Assembly (NCBI RefSeq): GCF_000283655.1
Contig: NC_016622.1
Span: 818,501 to 882,500, forward strand
DNA from: Azospirillum lipoferum 4B
Lineage (GTDB): Bacteria > Pseudomonadota > Alphaproteobacteria > Azospirillales > Azospirillaceae
Reading direction: 5' to 3'
DNA: 64,000 bases
Shown: positions 2,712 to 54,266 of the stretch, piece after piece
Layout of the letters: every line of letters begins with the position of its first letter
How positions within the stretch are numbered: the stretch's first letter is position 1
Notes under the pieces: generated by a model
Seen by the model: only the letters and a program-made list of their open reading frames with translations
Told to the model about the DNA's origin: nothing
Database searches by the model: none
Position numbers and translations under genes: made by a program

Positions 2712-2814
2712 CGCCGGTTGTCCGTTATGACCCCGGCTCATCGCCCGCCGCCGTGCCGCACCTGTCTGTGGATCCCCGCATCCGGTCGCTACCGGGTGGC
2801 GGCCTGATCCTGCC

Positions 2815-3279
2815 ATGAAGTCCGCCACGGCCTATCGCACCATCAGCGAGGTATCGACCGACCTGAACGTGCCTCAGCATGTGTTGCGCTTTTGGGAAAC
2901 CAAGTTTCCCCAGATCCGCCCGCTGAAGCGCGGCGGCGGCCGGCGCTTTTACCGGCCGGAGGACGTTGAGCTTCTGCGCCGAATTCAGGCCCTGCTGTAT
3001 GAGGACCGCTACACCATCAAGGGCGTGCAGCGCCTGCTGAAGGAAGGGCGCATGTCCGACCCGACGCCGCCTTTGCCCGAGGATGCCGATGAGCCGCAAG
3101 ACTCCGATGCTGGACAGTTGGGCGAAGAGGCGTTTGACGGCGATGGCGGCCCGGATGACGGGCAACATCCTCCTTTGTCCGCCGCCCTGCGGCACGAGAT
3201 CACCATGGTGGTCGACGAGTTGAAATCTCTGCGGTCGATGCTGTCGCGTCTGTCCGAAATCGGGGACAAAAAAAGCTGA
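2815..3279 (+). CDS. MerR-family transcriptional regulator
   Basis: A 154-residue regulator. The N-terminal winged helix is clear: [20 protein letters not shown], then [10 protein letters not shown] and [15 protein letters not shown]. No C-terminal Cys cluster for metal sensing is seen; the middle is acidic ([14 protein letters not shown]) and the tail a predicted helix ([13 protein letters not shown]). It belongs to the small MerR subgroup found next to ihfA in many alphaproteobacteria, whose effector is not established. Transcription probably runs on from ihfA, about 100 bases upstream. Confidence 0.9.
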
Positions 3280-3373
3280 AAAATCATTACGGGAGATGTT
3301 GCATCGGCAAAAGTCCGCGGCTATAGTCCCGTTCCCTTCCGGAGCCAAGCCGCAAGCACTGCGGTGAAGTTGA

Positions 3374-4631: not shown

Positions 4632-5537
4632 TCACGCCGCCCTGGCGACGTCCTCGGTTTGGGCATAGTAACGCGCTTCGGCCTCGGCGGGAGGAATGTT
4701 GCCGATGGGTTCGAGGAGGCGCCGGTGGTTGAACCAGTCGACCCATTCCAGAGTGGCGAACTCGACAGCCTCCAAGGTGCGCCATGGCCCGCGGCGCCGG
4801 ATCACCTCGGTCTTGTAGAGACCGTTGATGGTCTCGGCCAACGCGTTATCGTAGGAATCGCCAACGCTGCCCACGGAAGGCTCGACCCCAGCTTCGGTGA
4901 GACGCTCGGTGTAGCGAATCGCAACGTATTGCGATCCCCTGTCGGAGTGATGGATGAGGCCGCAGCCCTTGGCCGGTCGGCGGTCGTGAAGTGCCTGTTC
5001 GAGCGCATCCAGAACGAAGCCGGCGTGGGCTGTGCTGGACACCCGCCAGCCCACGATGCGGCGCGCGAAGGCGTCGATGACGAAGGCCACGTAGACGAAG
5101 CCCTGCCATGTCGATACGTACGTGAAATCGGCCAACCACAGGGCGTTTGGGCGTGGCGCCTGGAATTGGCGGTTCACCCGGTCAGCAGGGCATGACGCCG
5201 CCCGGTCGCTGATCGTGGTGCGCACCACCTTGCCACGCATCGCTCCTTTCAAGCCCATCTGCTTCATCAGTCGAGCCACTGTGCAGCGTGCCACGTCGAT
5301 ACCCTCCCGCCGCAACTGCCGCCAAACTTTACGTACCCCATAGACCTGGAAGTTCGCGTCCCAGACCCGCCGGATAGCCTCCCTCAGCACTGCGTCGCTT
5401 CGCGAACGGGCCGGCGCCTTGGACGGATCGGCCTGTCGGGCGGCATGGGCGTAATAGGTGGACGGGGCGATCGGCAGCACTCGGCAGATCGGCTCGACCC
5501 CGTGAACGGCGCGGTGCGCGTCGATGAAGGCGATCAT
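4632..5537 (-). CDS. IS3-family transposase OrfB (DDE catalytic subunit)
   Basis: A 301-residue integrase-core transposase. It has an N-terminal HTH_21-like region ([34 protein letters not shown]) followed by the rve catalytic domain. The DDE residues are visible: Asp in LWLADFTYV, Asp in [10 protein letters not shown], and Glu in [12 protein letters not shown]. The tail [20 protein letters not shown] is typical. Its ATG overlaps the orfA stop (ATGA); in IS3 elements the active transposase is usually an OrfAB fusion made by frameshifting, but no obvious A6G slippery run is seen here, so coupling is also possible. Confidence 0.95.
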
Positions 5538-5863
5538 TTCTTGAACGGGCGGTCGAGCTCCGCCTGGGCGAAATACGCCGACGCCTTGCGTAGGATCTCA
5601 TTCGCCTGGCGCAGCTCCCGCACCTCACGCTCCAAAGCCTTGATCCGTTCCTGCTCGTCCGTTGTCGGCCCCGGCCGCTTGCCCTGGTCACGCTCGGCCT
5701 GCCGGACCCAGCCCCGCAGCGTTTCCGGAGTGCAGCCGATCTTCGCCGCGATCGAACTGATCGCCGCCCACTGCGAGGCATGCTCGCCTTCGTGCTCGAA
5801 CACCATCCGAACCGCGCGCTCGCGCACTTCAGGGGCGTATTTGGGTGATGCCTGTTTCGTCAT
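5534..5863 (-). CDS. IS3-family transposase OrfA (HTH subunit)
   Basis: A 109-residue HTH_Tnp_1 protein beginning [20 protein letters not shown]. It has a helix-turn-helix ([20 protein letters not shown]) and a C-terminal leucine-zipper-like coiled coil ([20 protein letters not shown]). It binds the element ends and is the N-terminal partner of OrfB. It starts about 50 bases inside the right inverted repeat and overlaps orfB by 4 bases. Confidence 0.94.
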
Positions 5864-44694: not shown

Positions 44695-44721
44695 CGGGGG
44701 CCATTCGGCCCCCGTTTTTTT
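44695..44721 (+). terminator. Rho-independent terminator of rpoD
   Basis: CGGGGGCC-ATTC-GGCCCCCG (8-bp perfect stem) followed by seven T. The stop codon of the convergent ParB-domain gene lies inside the T-tract. Confidence 0.95.
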
Positions 44722-46171
44722 AGTATTGAGCATCTTCTGCGATATATCTGATGAATGGCCTTAGGTCTCCAGCAATTTCTCTTAATCTTTCGGGGGAGTG
44801 ATTGCCAATGCTGTCGTGAGCATTGTAATTTAGGTCGTTGATTCGTCCTTGGCTGATCATGTCTTGCACTTTGTTTGCCATGTTTTCGTTGGGGAAAACT
44901 TTATTCTCTCTGATCGCTGCATATGACATCATGTGGGAGAGTTTTGGCTTTTTGTGTTTTTCCTCCAATATTTTCCAATGACCAGTTTGTATAAGGTGGT
45001 AACGTAGACACCACTCAAATGTAACCCTCATTAGAAAAGATGCTGAAAACCTAAAGTCCTCAACATTAACTCTTCGTAGCTCTCGACAGAGAAGCCTCAT
45101 ATGAACATCATTTTGACGGCAATTCAGATGCTCAAAAAATAACTCCGGCCGATGATGTGTAGTGCTTTGAGGGGAAATTTTCCGTTCCTCGGCTTGCTGT
45201 TGACTGTGTTCTGGAATATTTTTTTCTGATTCTGATTTATCTATGTTTTTCTTGCTAGGTGCTGGTAATTTTTTTTCGAAAAAGTCTATCTGCTTTTCTT
45301 TATCAGTATTTTTGCGTGGAAACACCTCGTTCAAGTAATCTTGTATATTTGCGTCTTTATAGACTCTTCTCATTTCCTTTATGCGCTGAGAAATTATACA
45401 ATGCTTAGTGATTGCTCGTAAGACTTTCTCGAAATCTTGGAACATGTAATTCAGAGATCCGTCATGCAGAAATAGCTCCACACCAAAGTGCTTTTTTATC
45501 AAGGGCGAGAAGCAAATTCTCATTAGCGGTTGTATATCAATTCTAAAGTCCCAGAGTATATCGCGTTCGTGGCTCTTCCATTCTAGGCCTTGTATGGCTC
45601 GGTAAGCTTTTCCACGGGAAAGTAGGTTTTTGATGGTTTCCTCGGTAACTGATAACTCTCTTGCTAGTTCTTCTATCGAGCGCCCCATTAGAAATCGGCT
45701 TTCTGTATATCTAATTTGGCCGATATCAGTCCAATCTAGTTTTCCGCCATTAAGGTGTAGGCTGGCAACTACTTCATCTGCAATTGCTCGTGTTGCTGCG
45801 ATGGTCGCTGGTATGGACCGGATATTGTTTCTAGTTATATCATCAATTATCGGAATTTCTTTTTCCCAATGGCTATGCACTGATAAGTATGGCTTCAGAA
45901 GAATCTTACATGCCGTTACACGACGATTTCCTTCAATTACAGTATATCCTGAAGATCCTGGAATAAGTATAACTCGCTCCTGCGGGAAGAGCCCTTTGAA
46001 ACTATTAATCTGCTTTGCTAGCGGAATTACGCCTTCATGCTCAATTAGATACTGAATGATTGCGTCCTGGGAGCTTCTGGAAAATGGATCTAGGCGCGGG
46101 TTCTCATCATCTAAAGCGATTTCAAGAGTAGGTACGTCGATATCTTCCCATTGGTCCTTATACAGAGTCAT
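44720..46171 (-). CDS. ParB/Srx-domain protein, stand-alone, AT-rich
   Basis: A 483-residue protein. The N-terminal 100 residues form a ParB/Srx-like domain ([20 protein letters not shown], and [17 protein letters not shown] corresponding to the GxRRxxA motif). A helix-turn-helix follows at about residue 165 ([20 protein letters not shown]). A Lys/Glu/Ser-rich linker (residues about 290-335) leads to a C-terminal helical domain ([40 protein letters not shown]). Base composition is near 40% G+C by eye, unlike the flanking rpoD, so recent transfer is likely. There is no ParA partner. Similar ParB-plus-helical-tail proteins occur in defence islands, but function here is unknown. Confidence 0.82.
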
Positions 46172-46378
46172 AATCCCTCCATATGTAAAGTTCGTTGAAT
46201 TATCCCGTGATGATGCAAAAAATCAAGGGAACGCAAAAGCCGTAGGGCTACCGTAAGGGAGAGTGTTGCGCTAATTTTTCTCAGCGATGCTGCGCGGGGC
46301 CAACGAGCACTCTCCAGTTGAGTGGCTCAGAAAATGCTCTTGCGGAAAAAAACATTTCAGAGCAGATTGCGAGCCCTC
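46172..46378. other. Intergenic, AT-rich, before the tRNA
   Basis: Gene-free. The part next to the ParB-domain gene shares its low G+C content and should hold its promoter (minus strand). Composition changes toward the tRNA near 46290. Confidence 0.4.
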
Positions 46379-46454
46379 GGGCCTGTAGTTCAGCGGTTAG
46401 AACGCGCCGCTCATAACGGTGTTGTCGTCGGTTCGAATCCGGCCGGGCCCACCA
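46379..46454 (+). tRNA. tRNA with anticodon CAT (probably tRNA-Ile2, lysidine-type)
   Basis: A 76-nt gene with encoded CCA. The acceptor GGGCCTG pairs with CGGGCCC (one G-T pair), the anticodon loop CTCATAA has anticodon CAT, and the T arm has GGTTCGAATCC. In sequence style it resembles the minor isoleucine tRNA whose C34 becomes lysidine; methionine cannot be excluded by eye. The last 48 bases are repeated at 54219-54266, so it served as an integration site. Confidence 0.93.
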
Positions 46455-46863
46455 AGCTTTCCAGAGGTTTCCGGCAGGCTGTCGGCGTCCTTGTCACCAT
46501 CGCGGCACGCAAGCGGCACGCAAGCGCCGAACTCCGTGTTCCGGTAGAGCGGCAGGGCCGCCGTCAGTTCCTGCCGGATCGCGCTCACCGTGCCGCTCGA
46601 CACGCCCGTCCGTCGGACCGCCTCACCTGGGCCAGGACGCCGTCGGCCATCGCCGATAGCTTGGGGGGCTGGGGAACAATGGAGCAGGAAACCGACATAA
46701 AGGGGTGGAAGCGTTGGAAAACATGGGTTTTCCGGCAGGCGCCGCAAGCCGCTTCACCTCCCGTTCCAACGCCCCGAAATCATAAACGGCAACCCCTGTC
46801 GGCCATACCTGCCGTACCATCCTCCTCCCAGGATTGTTCTGCTCTTCATTGCTTACAGGAGGA
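46455..46863. other. Island left end without intact gene
   Basis: A 409-base stretch between tRNA(CAT) and the secretion genes. A minus-strand reading contains a short helix-turn-helix-like segment (TGVSSGTVSAIRQEL near 46560-46620), perhaps a leftover of an island gene, but no convincing full gene is present. Confidence 0.45.
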
Positions 46864-48180
46864 TCATTCCTCGCGGAATGCCTTGCGGAAACTGTCCTGG
46901 ATTGGTTGCGTCAGATAGGTCAGCAGGGTGCGCTCGCCGGTGACGATCAGGGTTTCCGCCGGCATGCCCGGTTGCAAGTGAACGTCCCTCAGCGCGGCAA
47001 GCTGGGTGGCGTCCACCGTCACCCGCGCGGCGTAATAGGCTTGGCCGCTGCGCTCGTCGGTGAGCGCGTCGGCCGAGACGCGGGTCACCATGCCGTCGAT
47101 CGGCGGCGTCGTCCGCGTCTTGAACGCGGTCAGTACCACCTTGGCCGGCAGGCCGGCGTGGACGATGTCGATGTCCATCGGGTTGACCCGCGCCTCGATC
47201 ACCAGCGCGTCATCGGACGGCACGAGGTCGAGCACCGCCGCCCCCGGCGCCACCACAGCCCCCGCCGCGAAATGGCGCAGGTTCACCACCGTGCCGCTCT
47301 CCGGTGCCAGCAGGTCGCGCCGGGTCTGGCGCACCTGGGCGGCGGCCAGCTTCTCGGCGATCTCGGCCCGGCGGGTTTGCGTCTCGCGCAGTTCGGCGGC
47401 CACCTCGCTTTGGCGGTCGGCGCGCAGGCCCAGCATCTCCTGTTCCGCCTGGGCAATCCCCTCGCGCGCCTGGGCGATGCGGTTGGCAAGGTCGCCCTGG
47501 TTGCCGTCCAGCTCCGCCGCCTGACGCATGAGGCCGAGGAGGCGCGATTTGCGCTCGTAGCCCTTGGCGACGATCTCGCTGACCGCATCGACCTCCTCCT
47601 GGATCAGGACGAGCTGCCGACGGCCGGCGGAGCGTTGCGCTTCCAGCGCGGCGATCTGGGCGTCGAGTTGGGCGACCCGCTGGCGCGTCACCGCCGCGCG
47701 TCCGTCCAGGGCGGCGTTGCGGGTGGTGAAGATGCGCTCCTGACCGGCCAGGATGTCGCTCACCACCGGATGGCCGGCGCGCGTTGCCAAGACCGGCGGC
47801 ACGGCCATAACCTCCAGCCCGTCGCGCTCGGCGCTCAGTCGGGCCTGTTGCGCCAGCAGCGACCAGAGCTGCTCCTCCAGAACCGTGACGGTCGAGCGGG
47901 ATTCCAGATCGTCGAGCCGCATCAGCGGCTGCCCGGCGGCGACGCCTTGCCCTTCGCGCACCAGGATCTCGGCGATGATGCCGCCTTCCAGATGCTGCAC
48001 GCTCTTGCGGTTGCTGTCGGCCGTCACCACGCCGGGGGCGATGGCGGCGCTCGACAATGGCGCCAGAGCGGCCCAGGCGCCGAATCCGCCGAAGCCCACC
48101 ACGGCGAGAACGACGCCGGTGGCGACCAGCCGCCCGACGGGGGGATGCGGCGGGACGTCCGGCACGGCATCGCGGGTCAT
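46864..48180 (-). CDS. HlyD-family membrane fusion protein of type I secretion
   Basis: A 438-residue periplasmic adaptor (PrtE/HlyD type). One N-terminal membrane span (ATGVVLAVVGFGGFGAWAAL) is followed by the lipoyl-half motif SNRKSVQHLEGGIIAEILVR. Long coiled-coil hairpin segments rich in Ala, Glu, Arg and Gln fill residues about 100-280. The second lipoyl/beta-barrel half has RDLLAPESGTVVNLRHFAAG, and the end PGMPAETLIVTGERTLLTYL is diagnostic. The start at 48180 avoids a TTG inside the ABC gene stop region. It connects the ABC exporter to an outer-membrane TolC-like channel, which is not encoded here. Confidence 0.93.
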   Translation of the reverse strand: MTRDAVPDVPPHPPVGRLVATGVVLAVVGFGGFGAWAALAPLSSAAIAPGVVTADSNRKSVQHLEGGIIAEILVREGQGVAAGQPLMRLDDLESRSTVTVLEEQLWSLLAQQARLSAERDGLEVMAVPPVLATRAGHPVVSDILAGQERIFTTRNAALDGRAAVTRQRVAQLDAQIAALEAQRSAGRRQLVLIQEEVDAVSEIVAKGYERKSRLLGLMRQAAELDGNQGDLANRIAQAREGIAQAEQEMLGLRADRQSEVAAELRETQTRRAEIAEKLAAAQVRQTRRDLLAPESGTVVNLRHFAAGAVVAPGAAVLDLVPSDDALVIEARVNPMDIDIVHAGLPAKVVLTAFKTRTTPPIDGMVTRVSADALTDERSGQAYYAARVTVDATQLAALRDVHLQPGMPAETLIVTGERTLLTYLTQPIQDSFRKAFREE

Positions 48181-48191
48181 GGTCGGTCCTG

Positions 48192-49973
48192 TCAATCAGC
48201 GGGGAGGGCAGCGGGGAGGGCAGCGGGGAGGGCAGCGGGTTGCGCGCCGGGACGGGCGGCCGTCTGCGGTCCCGTCGGGACGCTGTGCAGGCTGCGGCGC
48301 TTCAGCCCGTCGAGCACCTCGGCGCGCGGGCCGAAGGCTTCCACCCGGCCGTCGCGCAGGGCGACGATGCGGTCGACCTGGGCCAGCGTGCCGGGCCGGT
48401 GGCCGATGACGACGGCGCAGGCGCCGCGTTCCTTCAGCGCGGCGATGGCGCGGTTCAGCGCCTGTTCGCCCTCGGCATCCAGGCTGGCGTTGGGCTCGTC
48501 GAGCACGATCAGCTTGGGATCGCCGTACAGCGCGCGGGCCAGCGCGATGCGCTGACGCTGCCCGCCGGACAGGAAGGCTCCGCCCTCGCCGATCTCGGTG
48601 TCGTATCCCTTGGGCAGGCGCAGGATCATGGCGTGGCAATCGGCCAGCCGCGCCGCCGCGACCACCGCCTCCGGATCGGGGTCGCCGAGCCGGGCGATGT
48701 TCTCCGCGACGCTGCCGGCGAACAGCCCGACCTCCTGCGGCAGATAGCCGATGTGGCGGCCGACGTCGTCGCGCCGCCACTGGAACAGGTCGGCGCCGTC
48801 CAGCCGCACCGACCCGGCCAGCGGCGGGTGCAGCCCGACCAGCAGGCGGGCCAGCGTCGATTTGCCGGCGGCCGAGGGGCCGATGATCGCCAGCGCCTCG
48901 CCCGGCTTGGCCTCGAACGACACGTTGTTCAGGATCAGCCGCTCCTGCCCGCCGACGCGGAAGGCGACGGCCTGGACGGACAGCCGCCCGGCAGGAGCGG
49001 GCAATGGCAACCCGGCGGGACGGCGCGGCGGGCGGGCAAAGACGGCGCTCAGCCGGCGCCACGCCTCGCGCCCGGCGCTGACCTGACGCCAGCCGCCGAT
49101 GGCCTGTTCGACCGGAGCGAGGGCGCGGCCGACCACCAACGAGGACGCCATCATCGCGCCGCCGCTCATCTCGTGCCGTACCACCAGCCAAGCGCCGGCA
49201 CCGAGCAGGGCGACCTGAACGATCTGGCGCAGGAACTTGGTGACGTTCAGCAGCGCCGCGCCGCGCCACTGCGCCCGGTCTTGCGACTCCAGGGCCAGGG
49301 CGTGGTCGCGGCGCCAGCGCCACGTCAGGCCGGGCAGCAGGTTCATCGCCTCCACCGCCTCGGCGTTGCGCAGGGCGGCCTCGGCGGTCGCCATGGCGCG
49401 GTTGCTGGCGGCGGAGGCGGCGCGCAGGCTGGCGCGGGTGACGCGGTCGTTGGCCAGCGCCAGCGCGAACAGCAGCACCGCCGAGGCCACCGCCAGATGC
49501 CCCAGCACCGGATGCAGCAGGTAGATCAGCGCGAGATAGACCGGGACCCAGGGCGCGTCGAACAGAAAGGCGATGCCGCCGCCGAGCACGCCGCGCAGGG
49601 TGCCCAGATCGCGCAGGATCTCGGTCCGCTCGCCTCCCGCCGCCCCTTGGCTCATCAGGGCGCCGTCCACCATGCGCTCCAGCATCGGCGGGCCGAGGCT
49701 GCGCTCCAGCCAGTCGCCGAGCGTGCCGAGCAGGCGCGCCCGGGTGAAATCCAGCGCGCTCATCAGAGCGATGGCGCCCACGGCGATCAGCGACAGATAC
49801 AGCAACGTGGACAGGCTGCCCGAGGACAGGACGCGGTCGTAGACCTGCATCATGTAGAGCGACGAAGACAACATCAGCACGTTGATCAACAGGCTGAATC
49901 CACCCACCCACAGCAACGGCGCCCGGCAGCGCGCGAGGATCGTCGCCGGAGTGTGGTCGACCTGCATTTTCAA
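48192..49973 (-). CDS. Type I secretion ABC transporter (PrtD-type)
   Basis: A 593-residue exporter with an N-terminal membrane domain (LLWVGGFSLLINVLMLSSSL, DAPWVPVYLALIYLLHPVLG, VALLGAGAWLVVRHEMSGGA). The ATPase domain has Walker A IGPSAAGKSTLARLLVG, Q-loop GYLPQEVGLFAGSV, signature FLSGGQRQRIALARAL and Walker B LIVLDEPNASLDAEG. It lacks an N-terminal peptidase, as in PrtD/AprD exporters for RTX proteins. It ends in a short repeated AALP tail. It precedes the HlyD gene by 11 bases, forming one operon. Confidence 0.94.
   Translation of the reverse strand: MKMQVDHTPATILARCRAPLLWVGGFSLLINVLMLSSSLYMMQVYDRVLSSGSLSTLLYLSLIAVGAIALMSALDFTRARLLGTLGDWLERSLGPPMLERMVDGALMSQGAAGGERTEILRDLGTLRGVLGGGIAFLFDAPWVPVYLALIYLLHPVLGHLAVASAVLLFALALANDRVTRASLRAASAASNRAMATAEAALRNAEAVEAMNLLPGLTWRWRRDHALALESQDRAQWRGAALLNVTKFLRQIVQVALLGAGAWLVVRHEMSGGAMMASSLVVGRALAPVEQAIGGWRQVSAGREAWRRLSAVFARPPRRPAGLPLPAPAGRLSVQAVAFRVGGQERLILNNVSFEAKPGEALAIIGPSAAGKSTLARLLVGLHPPLAGSVRLDGADLFQWRRDDVGRHIGYLPQEVGLFAGSVAENIARLGDPDPEAVVAAARLADCHAMILRLPKGYDTEIGEGGAFLSGGQRQRIALARALYGDPKLIVLDEPNASLDAEGEQALNRAIAALKERGACAVVIGHRPGTLAQVDRIVALRDGRVEAFGPRAEVLDGLKRRSLHSVPTGPQTAARPGAQPAALPAALPAALPAD
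48198..48233. repeat. Three tandem 12-bp repeats at the end of the ABC gene
   Basis: AGCGGGGAGGGC three times in direct succession, encoding the repeated AALP units at the exporter C-terminus on the minus strand. Being in-frame, unit gain or loss would only change tail length. Confidence 0.9.
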
Positions 49974-50052
49974 ACGTCGCTCCCCAAGCGCCGGGACCAG
50001 TTGCGCGTGTTTGACTGCGCGCCACTGTCCCTGGTCGCTTCGATGGTTGTCA

Positions 50053-51108
50053 TCAAGACGACGACGCGGTGTCGGTCTTGTCTTTACCGGCCCCGGCCTT
50101 CAGTGACCCGACCAAGGAATTCAGCACGCTGTCGGAAACGTCCTTGCCAGCGCTCGACGCGGTGTCGAGAATGCCGGTGGCCGCCGTCTTCTTCGCTCCG
50201 GCCTCCAGCGCGGATTGCAGCATGGAAGCCGCCGCCTTCGCGTTGCCGGGATCGCTGACGGCGGGCTTTGTGGCCGCCACCGCTGGCGCGTTCTGGGCCG
50301 CATTGGCGGTTGACGTTGAAGCGGAACTGTCTGCCTCAGTCGGCGCGCCGGTGGGTTGCTGAGGTGCGGTGGCTCCAGACGGAGCAGCGCCATCAGGTTT
50401 GCTGGCATCGGCGGCGTAGCGGGCGAAAGCATCGCGGTAAACCGTCTCGTCGAAGCCGGCTTGGCTCAGTTTGTCCACCGCCGCGCGATCTTCCGCAGGA
50501 ATGAGGCTTGCCGCCTTAAGGCGTTGCTGAGCGAACTGCTGAAGCCGGTCGTTGATCCCGGCGAGGGCGGGGTCGTCAATGGTTGAGCCAGAGTCGCCGC
50601 CCGCCGCCAACTCATCACTTTTGCGGGCCGCATCAATGGACTTGCCGGCCGCGCGAATTTGCACGGCATAGTCCTCATGGCTGATCTCGCCCTTTTTGAG
50701 CGCCGCATCAACAGCCCCCATGGCAGAAAGGGCCTTTCCCATATCGTCACTGATGCCCTTGAGCTTGGGGCTGGCCGCTCCGCCTGACATGGACCTGGAG
50801 GATTGACCATCGACAGCCGCCGTCGCCAGAGCCTGCAACCCCTTGACGACATCCTCCGCCTTGACCGCCCCACTGTTCACCAATCCGTCCAGCATCCCAC
50901 GCGCCTTCGCGTCAAGATGCTTGAACGCATCCGCAGCACGCCCTGTCAAAGCTTCGCCCAGCTTGCTCATCGACACTTTATCGCCAACGGGCGTATGCGC
51001 CTGGGTGGTGCCCACCCCCGCTTTTGCTGGAGAAGAGGTGGTGGATTTCCATAAGCCTGCCGATGATGATGACGCCGCCGTGAATACACCAATCTTATCG
51101 ACCGCCAT
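50053..51108 (-). CDS. Unrecognised 351-residue Ala/Ser-rich protein
   Basis: No family is recognised. There is no signal peptide or membrane span. The protein starts AVDKIGVFTAASSSSAGLWK, has predicted helical segments (KLGEALTGRAADAFKHLDAK, DDMGKALSAMGAVDAALKKG, INDRLQQFAQQRLKAASLIP) separated by Ala/Ser/Pro/Thr-rich linkers, and ends in KTDTASSS. It is followed by the type I secretion genes on the same strand, 79 bases before the ABC gene. A short hydroxyl-rich C-terminus without Cys is compatible with type I export, so it could be a substrate; this is inference from position and composition. Confidence 0.75.
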   Translation of the reverse strand: MAVDKIGVFTAASSSSAGLWKSTTSSPAKAGVGTTQAHTPVGDKVSMSKLGEALTGRAADAFKHLDAKARGMLDGLVNSGAVKAEDVVKGLQALATAAVDGQSSRSMSGGAASPKLKGISDDMGKALSAMGAVDAALKKGEISHEDYAVQIRAAGKSIDAARKSDELAAGGDSGSTIDDPALAGINDRLQQFAQQRLKAASLIPAEDRAAVDKLSQAGFDETVYRDAFARYAADASKPDGAAPSGATAPQQPTGAPTEADSSASTSTANAAQNAPAVAATKPAVSDPGNAKAAASMLQSALEAGAKKTAATGILDTASSAGKDVSDSVLNSLVGSLKAGAGKDKTDTASSS

Positions 51109-51506
51109 GACACAGCCCCCTCTCGAGCGTTACAATAATTTGTTGCCGGTTGTTCTAATGTGGCGACCAAAAGTAAACCCAAGATTAATTTAACCAATTT
51201 GCTCGCGTTTCATCTCATGCGTAAAGATGGAAACCAACTGCTTTGACAGTGAGGGCGCGCAATTTTATTACTTAGGTTCGTAACCATCAGGATAAATGCT
51301 TACATTGCTAACCTATTTCGGAAAATAGATTTAACATTAAAATGACGGATAGCGCGATTGTCATTCATATACTTTGAAATCTAATCATTCTATTAGGATC
51401 CTAACTATCGAAAATTCTATGGTATGAGTTTTTTTATTGATTCATTTAGTAGAAATACGTAAGAGATATACGCCGATTTCGGTATAACTTTGATGGGGGA
51501 TATCCA
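51109..51506. promoter_or_regulatory. AT-rich divergent intergenic region
   Basis: A 398-base region between the unknown protein gene and the RTX gene, much richer in A+T than its surroundings. A TTGACA at 51243-51248 followed after 17 bases by TATTAC (51266-51271) is a reasonable sigma-70 promoter for the RTX gene, leaving a long leader of about 230 bases. The high A+T content is typical of sites silenced by H-NS-like proteins or of horizontally acquired promoters. Confidence 0.45.
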
Positions 51507-52211
51507 ATGGCGATATGGTATGGAACTTCTGGGGACGATGTCTATGATGCCCCCACGGGCCTCAACACCCTTTTTGGGGGCGCCGGAAACGACGACATCC
51601 TTGGTAACACCGACCGGGATTATATTGATGGCGGGGATGGAAACGACATTCTCTATGGCAGTTCTGGTAATGACAGCCTCTACGGCGGAATTGGAAACGA
51701 CACGCTGAACGGCAACAATGAACATGATCTCTTAGTCGGCGAAGACGGGAACGACTTCCTCTATGGCGGAACCAACAACGATACGCTTGCCGGCGGCAAT
51801 GGTGACGATACGCTGCATGGCGATTATGGCACGGACAGCGGTGTGGATGCGCTGACGGGCGGGGCCGGCAACGATATCCTTTACGGTGGAAATGACAGCG
51901 ACAACTACTATTACACTTGCAACTCCGACGGGATCGACATCATCTCGGACACCGCAGGCGACTATGACCGTCTGCGATTGAACGGTCCGACGGCCACCAA
52001 CCAACTCGAATATTATCGAGCTGATACCTTCGGTGGCGATTACAACGACCTTCTCTTCTTTACCAAAGCTGATGCCGCCGACGGCAATATCAGCGAATAC
52101 ATCATCATAGATGATTTCTGGAGCGGCAGTTCCGCTGGCGCGGGCCGAATTGAATACCTCAATCTGAGCGGTACCGATTACTGGTTCAACAGCGTCGTCT
52201 CAGGCCTCTAA
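51507..52211 (+). CDS. Small RTX calcium-binding repeat protein
   Basis: A 234-residue protein made almost entirely of Ca-binding nonapeptide repeats from residue 5 to 130: [53 protein letters not shown] and [14 protein letters not shown]. The C-terminal 100 residues ([39 protein letters not shown]) look like the uncleaved secretion signal region of RTX proteins. There is no N-terminal enzyme or adhesion domain. It is a likely substrate of the adjacent type I exporter. Ribosome-binding site GGGGGA upstream. Confidence 0.93.
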
Positions 52212-52328
52212 AAAGCCGCGAGGATACTGGGGAATCGGATTGTTCATCGGTTCCCCAGCCCACGTTGAGCATGGCAAGGCAACAGAACATCCACTATGTC
52301 GAATTATTCGTTAAACTGATCGTTCGTG

Positions 52329-53540
52329 ATGAAAATCGTCTTCATCCACCAGAACATACCGGGCCAGTACAAGCATCTGGCGGCGGCGTTGGCTGCGGAT
52401 CCCGCCAACCATGTGGTGTTCATCACCCGGCGCTCCGACCGCGACATTCCCGGCGTCCGATGTCTGACCTACGGTGTCCGCCGCCCGCCCCAGTCGCAGG
52501 CCCACGCTTATTTGCGGTCCACCGAAGGCGCGGTCCTGCATGGACAGGAAGTCGCACGCGTGCTCCTGACGCTCAAGAAAGAGGGCTTCGTTCCCGACAT
52601 CATCGTCGGCCATCCCGGCTGGGGCGAGACGCTGTTCGTCAAGGACGTGCTGCCCGATACGCCCTATCTCAACTACTGCGAATTTTACTATAAACCGCAG
52701 GGCCAGGATTTTGGCTTCGATCCCCTCTACCCGACCAGTCTCGACGCTCAATTGACTTTGCGCATGCGCCGCGCGCCGCTGCTGCTGGCGCTGGAGGCGT
52801 GCGACCGTGGGGTGGCTCCGACCGCGTGGCAGCGCGACTCCCATCCTGCGGAATTCCGCGCGAAGATCGACACCATTCACGACGGCATCGACACCGCCGC
52901 CCTGCGCCCCGACCCGGCGGCCAGCCTCACCCTGCCCGATGGCCGCGTTCTGGTGCCCGGCGACGCGGTGGTCACCTACGCCGCCCGCAATCTGGAACCC
53001 TACCGGGGCTTTCCCTCCTTCATGCGCGCGACACCCCGCATTCTGGAGGCGCGGCCCGACGCGACCATACTGATCATCGGCGGCGACGAGGCCAGCTATG
53101 GCGCCCGCCCCAAGGAAGGCGGGACATGGCGCGAGGCGATGCTGCGGGAGGTGGACGTCGATCTCCGGCGCGTCGTCTTTCTCGGTCATCTTCCCTATGA
53201 CCGCTTCCTGGCCGCCATCGCCGTGTCGCGGGTCCATGTCTACCTGACCTACCCCTTCGTGTTGTCCTGGTCGATGCTGGAGGTGATGGCCCTTGGCCGC
53301 GTGGTGATCGGGTCCGACACAGCCCCGGTGCGCGAGGTCATCCGCGACGGCGAGAACGGCCTGCTGGTCGATTTCTTCGCGTCCGAGGCCATCGCCGACC
53401 GTGTTATCGACGTCCTGGCGGATCCCGCTGCCTTCGCCCCGCTGGGCCGCGCCGCCCGTGACACGGTGATCCAGCACTATGATCTTGCCGACTGTCTGGC
53501 CCGGCACACCCGCCTGACAATCGAAATGGCGGGGCGCTGA
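52329..53540 (+). CDS. Glycosyltransferase family 4-like protein
   Basis: A 403-residue GT-B glycosyltransferase. The N-terminal Rossmann half has MKIVFIHQNIPGQYKHLAAA and DIIVGHPGWGETLFVKDVL; the C-terminal donor-binding half has VTYAARNLEPYRGFPSFMRA, VFLGHLPYDRFLAAIAVSRV and the E-x7-E-like region SWSMLEVMALGRVVIGSDTA. The sugar donor and acceptor are not predictable. It lies 117 bases after the RTX gene on the same strand and may modify surface polysaccharide or the exported protein. Confidence 0.9.
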   Translation: MKIVFIHQNIPGQYKHLAAALAADPANHVVFITRRSDRDIPGVRCLTYGVRRPPQSQAHAYLRSTEGAVLHGQEVARVLLTLKKEGFVPDIIVGHPGWGETLFVKDVLPDTPYLNYCEFYYKPQGQDFGFDPLYPTSLDAQLTLRMRRAPLLLALEACDRGVAPTAWQRDSHPAEFRAKIDTIHDGIDTAALRPDPAASLTLPDGRVLVPGDAVVTYAARNLEPYRGFPSFMRATPRILEARPDATILIIGGDEASYGARPKEGGTWREAMLREVDVDLRRVVFLGHLPYDRFLAAIAVSRVHVYLTYPFVLSWSMLEVMALGRVVIGSDTAPVREVIRDGENGLLVDFFASEAIADRVIDVLADPAAFAPLGRAARDTVIQHYDLADCLARHTRLTIEMAGR

Positions 53541-53700
53541 AAAGCTTCTCCGTGCATATTGGGGGAGGCCTTGCACCGTGTCTTGCATCGTGTAAAGGCC
53601 GAATGAAGTTTGGCCCATCCGCATTCTCGGTGCAGGGAGCCGCCGACAAGCGCGGGGCGCCGCTGCATATCATGAACGGCATTCTCCTCGACAATCTCGC

Positions 53701-54201
53701 TGGCTCTACCATCGGGGCCAGAGTTTCGGCTGCCTGGAGCATGTTGCAACGATCAAGGTCGAAAACGCGATCTGGCGCCTGTCGGAGCGGATCTACGGCA
53801 TGCTGGTGGATATCCCTCTTCTCAGCGGTCTCCGGCAACGGAGATACGGGCTGCCGCCGGCAAGCATCGAAGCGGCAACCTCCCGCGAGGGCCGCATCTT
53901 CGCAAGCCACCTGTACGATCCCGTCGTCAGGGGCAGGCGGCATGACTGGGCCGACGCCGAGCCGGCCAATATTCTGGACGATCTTTACGAGGTCATCACC
54001 TCTTTGCAGGATGCGGTGGTGCGCGATCTGCGTGCCAGTGGCATCGTCATCGAAGCCAATCCGACCAGCAATCTGGCAACCGGTGCCGTAGGCTCGATGG
54101 AGGAGCATCCGTTGCTGCGGCACTTGCGCAACGATCACGATGCCGGGCTGTTCTCGATCAACACCGACGATCCCGGGGTGTTTGCGACCCGCTGTTCGGG
54201 A
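53701..54201 (+). pseudogene. Adenosine-deaminase-like gene fragment, cut at the island end
   Basis: Coding sequence without a plausible start reads GQSFGCLEHVATIKVENAIW, RLSERIYGMLVDIPLLSG and YEVITSLQDAVVRDLRASG. It continues to the deaminase signature IEANPTSNLATGAVGSMEEH, HPLLRHL and SINTDDPGVFATR, after which homology stops just before the tRNA-like repeat. The PTSN and TDDP motifs are typical of metal-dependent adenosine deaminases; large versions include RdrB of the RADAR antiphage system, but assignment to that group is tentative. Both ends are missing, so it is non-functional. Confidence 0.65.
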
Positions 54202-54218
54202 TGCGCGTCCTATCTCCA

Positions 54219-54266
54219 CCGCTCATGGCGGTGTTGTCGTCGGTTCGAATCCGGCCGGGCCCACCA
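54219..54266 (+). repeat. attR-like partial copy of tRNA(CAT)
   Basis: Matches 46407-46454 at 46 of 48 positions, covering the anticodon loop to CCA. The final 38 bases are identical. It lacks the 5' half of the tRNA, so it is not a working tRNA gene; it marks the right end of the island. Confidence 0.93.

Follow-up and report, generated by a model that had tools for sequence, protein, structure and literature searches.

How did a type I secretion module come to lie behind a tRNA gene of Azospirillum lipoferum 4B, and do its genes share one history? We studied this question on a window of 64,000 nucleotides, i.e., the whole stretch of DNA that was analysed, and compared it with 45 genomes of the genus (denoted Gnnn) and with individual loci (denoted Lnnn). 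The features in and around the module, with positions counted from the start of the window, are the following:

46379-46454, plus strand: complete tRNA(CAT) gene, tRNA-Met according to ARAGORN (CAT = elongator Met or Ile2)
46397-46627, minus strand: 3' remnant of a tyrosine integrase gene, its last 76 codons, reading into the tRNA (tblastn and DNA alignment)
46407-46454, plus strand: left repeat, the final 48 bases of the tRNA
46864-48195, minus strand: HlyD/PrtE-type periplasmic adaptor (TIGR01843, 382.2 bits, cut-off 208.65; PF13437)
48192-49973, minus strand: PrtD-type ABC exporter (TIGR01842, 673.2 bits, cut-off 510.15; PF00005, PF00664)
50053-51108, minus strand: orphan of 351 aa, preceding the exporter gene at a distance of 79 bases
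51507-52211, plus strand: RTX calcium-binding protein of 234 aa (PF00353, seven stretches)
52326-53540, plus strand: GT4 glycosyltransferase (PF12000, PF00534)
54219-54266, plus strand: right repeat, a partial copy of the tRNA 3' part, 46 of 48 bases identical

A sequence-only reading of this DNA had proposed that repeats of the tRNA bracket the gene set, and the identity of 46 of 48 bases was confirmed, with adaptor, exporter, 351-aa orphan, RTX gene and glycosyltransferase inside. When both strands are searched with up to three mismatches, the 48-mer occurs twice in the window, the second copy with two mismatches, while none of 100 shuffled sequences contained two matches. Extension of the pair yields 94% identity across 53 bases, and the spacing of the repeats is 7,812 bases. 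Both base changes sit in the right repeat, beside the native flank. A common tRNA fragment as the source of the repeat was considered and rejected: among the relatives, 39 of 45 genomes contain the 48-mer (up to three mismatches) once, five contain it twice and one lacks it. In line with the same reading, according to which the gene set lacks an outer-membrane channel of its own, a TolC-like gene is absent among the ORFs tested between the repeats.

For a comparison of the same site in relatives, genome contigs were scanned with the protein of the downstream anti-sigma gene, which gave rise to 17 Azospirillum loci. The tRNA, or a partial copy of it, is visible in 10 of them. In Azospirillum sp. 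B21 (L001), the stretch ending in rpoD is 97.0% identical to the window and is followed by a single tRNA, identical over 76 bases, and then by the right flank. This is an empty site, and L003 and L010 are empty likewise, so that the check for empty sites in related strains suggested by the earlier reading turned out positive in all three. Neither the adaptor nor the RTX gene has a match in any of the 17 loci (E 1e-3), and the refuting case of that reading, in which all relatives carry these genes here, does not apply. Exporter matches in the 17 loci reach just 29-33% identity, and B21 contains no adaptor match at E 1e-100. The island is thus real, associated with the tRNA and absent from a close relative. 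Other genes follow the tRNA elsewhere, named here from their reading frames: a TPR-like protein in L004, L016 and L007, and an HlyD-like protein with an ABC set in L006 and L008. In the G025 stretch, the TPR-like gene lies 3' of the right repeat and is hence probably native flank there rather than cargo. As a side observation, L011 (A. cavernae) carries a GT4 fragment beside an orphan fragment at positions 2788-3362, with the same ECF-sigma gene located approximately 6 kb downstream.

The statement that no integrase remains inside the island had to be corrected. The C-terminal remnant at 46397-46627 (minus strand) is identical in 63 of 76 residues (83%; tblastn, E 3e-39) to the full integrase of G023 (L089), which carries PF00589 and adjoins the same tRNA in another Azospirillum. 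An intact integrase next to the tRNA of the window is absent; with the last 76 codons only, the island is a disabled member of its kind. Along this line, the first 163-168 bases 3' of the tRNA show 88.5%, 87.5% and 86.9% identity to the corresponding place in G025, G023 and G035, respectively. The five genomes with a double 48-mer reveal further states of the site. The two copies are separated by 41.5 kb in G016, 44.7 kb in G023, 43.5 kb in G029 and 7.8 kb in G025, and lie on separate contigs in G035. An integrase with PF00589 stands beside the complete tRNA in G023 and G016, although the tRNA of G016 does not follow rpoD within the stretch examined. Clear integrase relatives beside the tRNA were recognized by reading in G029 and G035, the frame of the latter diverging near its end. 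The G025 island (L095, 3353-11209) has 7,809 bases between its repeats, the same left end and different cargo. Its integrase is also truncated, at another point, and consists of a 130-aa frame that is shifted near its end; the integrases of the window and G025 therefore seem, from their sequences, to have decayed separately. A search with the integrase against phages returned 15 records, every one below 60% identity and none reaching 80% coverage. Taken with the shared tRNA site, the integrase remnant identifies the island as a disabled integrase element, at a site that other elements use as well.

We consider it probable that an element with a tyrosine integrase, targeting the 3' half of the tRNA(CAT) after rpoD, delivered the type I secretion module. 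The empty sites, the integrase remnant, the left end shared with G023 and G025 and the double 48-mer in five of 45 genomes argue for this course of events. Later losses would have removed the bulk of the integrase, perhaps some of the right end too, and with them the capacity for self-excision. Some details fit less well. The right flank of the window aligns well with that of the relatives only from approximately 85 bases past the right repeat, the right end abuts a deaminase fragment and lacks an arm such as those of G023, G025 and G035, and the foreign spacer on the left is not explained by simple integration at a tRNA 3' end. These outer parts comprise the following features:

44719-46378, no strand: separate foreign insert of 1.66 kb between rpoD and the tRNA, outside the repeats
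44720-46171, minus strand: PD-Lambda-5_A-like gene (PDLC03998, E 1.1e-34 over residues 17-454; PADLOC gives no cut-off for this model)
53591-53635, plus strand: mobile-element debris of 45 bases, recurring unchanged within an IS-rich part of the Azospirillum plasmid pAB510a (IS named by reading)
53800-54210, plus strand: adenosine deaminase fragment, RdrB-like or general (PF00962, 37 bits)

The insert has a GC content of 41.7%, compared to 66.5% upstream and 69.4% downstream. Relatives of its PD-Lambda-5_A-like protein were found in none of the 45 genus genomes and in 10 of 385 genomes of the class set. PMC9519451 names a methyltransferase part for PD-Lambda-5; Pfam revealed no methyltransferase domain in the 483-aa protein, and its gene neighbours are rpoD and the tRNA. 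The insert occupies the place of a spacer of approximately 81 bases with a promoter-like region that is found in relatives. By eye, the elements preceding the tRNA read TTGCAT-17-GCAAAG in relatives such as B21 and TTGCGG-17-CAGATT in the window. With the insert in place of the spacer, this tRNA, of which most relatives have a single copy, may be transcribed from a foreign promoter in the window.

At the opposite end, the deaminase fragment extends to the right repeat and ends there. It matches RdrB in PADLOC (E 1.5e-6) and, in NCBIfam, both RdrB (E 6.2e-9) and the general adenosine deaminase (E 1.1e-8), the latter two far below cut-off. Relatives occur in four of the 45 genus genomes, with 36% identity at best. 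Of a RADAR system, only this fragment is present, and no RdrA-like ORF was found among the scanned island proteins. The neighbouring debris at 53591-53635 may resemble an IS21 end. Elsewhere in the window, an ALIL pseudoknot was observed at 5463-5579 on the minus strand; such pseudoknots generally serve IS elements as a frameshift signal.

These outer parts are the ground for a different course, a composite replacement, in which 44719-54218 would have come in through one or more recombinations. The incoming DNA would have comprised the insert gene, the secretion genes and a complete tRNA together with the region upstream of that tRNA, leaving the right repeat as the remainder of the native tRNA. 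The compared relatives with a tRNA after rpoD all share a similar spacer and promoter-like region, which the window alone lacks, and the placement of both base changes in the right repeat, beside the native flank, as well as the remains of a deaminase gene and of an IS at the right end, are consistent with such a replacement. We regard it as rather unlikely: the GC content of the insert (41.7%) and of the exporter genes (71-73%) suggests different sources, and past the tRNA the left end corresponds to what an ordinary integrase element has there.

Turning from the site to its cargo, the exporter and adaptor score above curated cut-offs and an RTX gene is adjacent, which points to a type I system of the PrtD/PrtE kind. 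Adaptor and exporter genes overlap by four bases. The 234-aa RTX protein consists of RTX repeats only; other domains were not found in Pfam and NCBIfam, and its structure model (mean pLDDT 51.5) is too poor for a fold search. Adaptor matches with 59-75% identity occur in seven of the 45 genus genomes, followed by a second group at E 1e-100 with 41-48% identity. G018 and G007 show the gene order and strands of the window, with the GT4 gene split across two frames in G018 and the orphan shrunk to an 87-aa frame in G007. G036 has the module without GT4, G033 has all five module genes on a single strand, and in G025 the orphan is opposed to RTX gene, exporter and adaptor while GT4 is absent. In G019, exporter and adaptor are accompanied by an RTX match of lower strength, and in G037 the adaptor lies with a part of the exporter. 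In total, six of these seven other exporter loci have an RTX gene, four a full-length orphan and three a GT4 gene. The frames surrounding the modules vary between genomes, no tRNA(CAT) was found in the eight module stretches scanned (L046-L053), and the exporter protein has no match among plasmids at E 1e-150.

Exporter families above cut-off, RTX genes near six of seven exporter loci and the TolC family TIGR01844, above cut-off in 45 of 45 relatives' genomes, support an export route in which the PrtD-type exporter, the HlyD-type adaptor and a TolC encoded elsewhere would export the RTX protein, its likely substrate, which would fold outside the cell upon calcium binding. The borrowing of a host TolC, as proposed in the earlier reading, is accordingly plausible, and stays a prediction. 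We further assume, as a guess, that the orphan could be a second exported or export-associated protein and that the glycosyltransferase could modify a surface glycan or the exported protein.

The orphan might instead be the main cargo of the exporter, in place of the RTX protein. It has no match in Pfam, NCBIfam or PADLOC. When four members of its family were searched in Pfam at E 5, four Pfam families were returned, every one of them for a single member (best E 0.005), and a search against solved structures gave two matches (best E 0.75). The single-sequence structure model is all helix, with a mean pLDDT of 44.8 too poor for a fold search. Family matches are present in 35 of 45 genus genomes, frequently in several copies each, and in 41 of 82 genomes of the order set, which includes the 45. 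A general pairing of orphan and RTX genes was rejected, although several relatives of the two were noticed by eye to be neighbours. RTX genes were counted in one of 40 orphan flanks and in one of 19 control stretches, where the motif count overlooks RTX genes that are short or broken, as with the one in L138 that is evident by protein match; the 40 flanks were taken down the list of relatives, minus the loci already compared and most of the long (~550-aa) relatives. An RTX frame lies near the orphan in eight of 11 earlier loci, mostly chosen for a module or RTX match. The orphan shares the strand of the exporter and precedes it by 79 bases, which speaks for it as main cargo, as do its relatives in four of the seven other exporter loci, with an 87-aa rest in a fifth, and the four nearest RTX relatives, which have no such exporter within stretches of 19.9 kb. 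Nevertheless, RTX genes accompany six of these seven loci, RTX cargo is the established case for PrtD-type exporters, and relatives of the orphan frequently occur with no matching exporter in their vicinity. We therefore judge this assignment unlikely.

That the genes are ancestral and were lost in relatives, the second tRNA piece deriving from a local duplication, is suggested by modules at other places in seven of 45 genomes, but is nearly refuted by the empty sites, the integrase remnant and the other elements at the same tRNA.

The RTX gene and the exporter differ in their histories, which is a further point against the integration of the module as set out above. At the DNA level, identity to G018 and G007 amounts to 78-79% for the adaptor-exporter block and to 78-81% for GT4. 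The RTX gene of the window aligns to those of the same two genomes only partially, at 67-68%, and is 75-77% identical to RTX genes of G014, G043, G011 and G038, from start to stop in three of the four. The latter genes have no neighbouring exporter of the same kind in stretches of 19.9 kb. In a 12-row RTX protein tree, the window clusters with these four (100/100). Forcing it with G007 and G018 was rejected (AU p 2.2e-5), as were a grouping of the G036 RTX protein with that of G025 (p 8.6e-4) and a single clade of all five module RTX rows (p 2e-103). These p-values are indicative, given that the groups were named with the identities already in view, that the repeats are short and that one of the rows is long. 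The exporters of G036 and G025 are sisters (100/100), and in the 7-row exporter tree the window falls outside the clade of G036, G025, G007 and G018 (96/95) rather than with G007 and G018 alone.

Candidate RTX swaps thus concern the window versus G007 and G018, and G036 versus G025. There are many RTX paralogues among the genomes compared, and the mismatch between RTX gene and exporter may reflect either a swap or a different choice among them, two readings that cannot be told apart. The transfer of the module as one package, suggested by the sequence-only reading, holds insofar as the exporter pair recurs with orphan, RTX and GT4 genes in several genomes, but not for the RTX genes, which do not form one clade. 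Tentatively, and as a possibility short of an even one, we envisage a mobile exporter cassette with an exchangeable cargo slot, in which the pair is kept, the small RTX gene is swapped between lineages and the orphan family provides a second partner.

Rhizobium PrsDE, from another alphaproteobacterium, consists of a PrtD-type exporter and an HlyD-type adaptor without a channel gene of its own. The module described here agrees with it in both protein types and in the absence of a channel gene from the locus, and differs in being a variable module on an island, to which an orphan and a small RTX gene belong. Islands with type I secretion and RTX genes are also familiar from E. coli hly. Salmonella SPI-4 (PMC12607715) and EHEC O-island 28 (PMC12758282) are islands with type I secretion genes as well, and for hly TolC is encoded away from the exporter (PMC3034196). 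As far as the available parts of these sources go, the island described here resembles all three in that its cargo combines an exporter, an adaptor and a substrate of RTX type, and hly in the lack of a channel gene, TolC presumably being encoded elsewhere, judging by the relatives. In contrast, the substrate here is a 234-aa protein of repeats only, accompanied by an orphan and GT4, in a plant-associated genus and with a truncated integrase. In Sinorhizobium meliloti, tRNA genes serve repeatedly as targets of integrases, both phage-related ones and those of islands, whose att sites match (PMC11476347), and the reuse of one tRNA site by several integrase elements is in agreement with this, although the available part of that source deals with other tRNA genes and does not mention secretion. 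tRNA islands with secretion cargo are of a general kind that is already well known. In the Azospirillum literature on type I secretion/RTX, genomic islands and prophage integration, available largely short of full text, no prior report of this island was found.

For this plant-associated genus, a single integration site presents itself in several states: empty, occupied by integrase-bearing elements, and taken by two islands that differ in cargo and both have a truncated integrase. The island offers a compact case for how an exporter and its RTX substrate move and re-pair, in which the possible exchange of the RTX gene merits further attention. If the cassette reading is true, a secreted or surface calcium-binding protein would change while the export machine stays.
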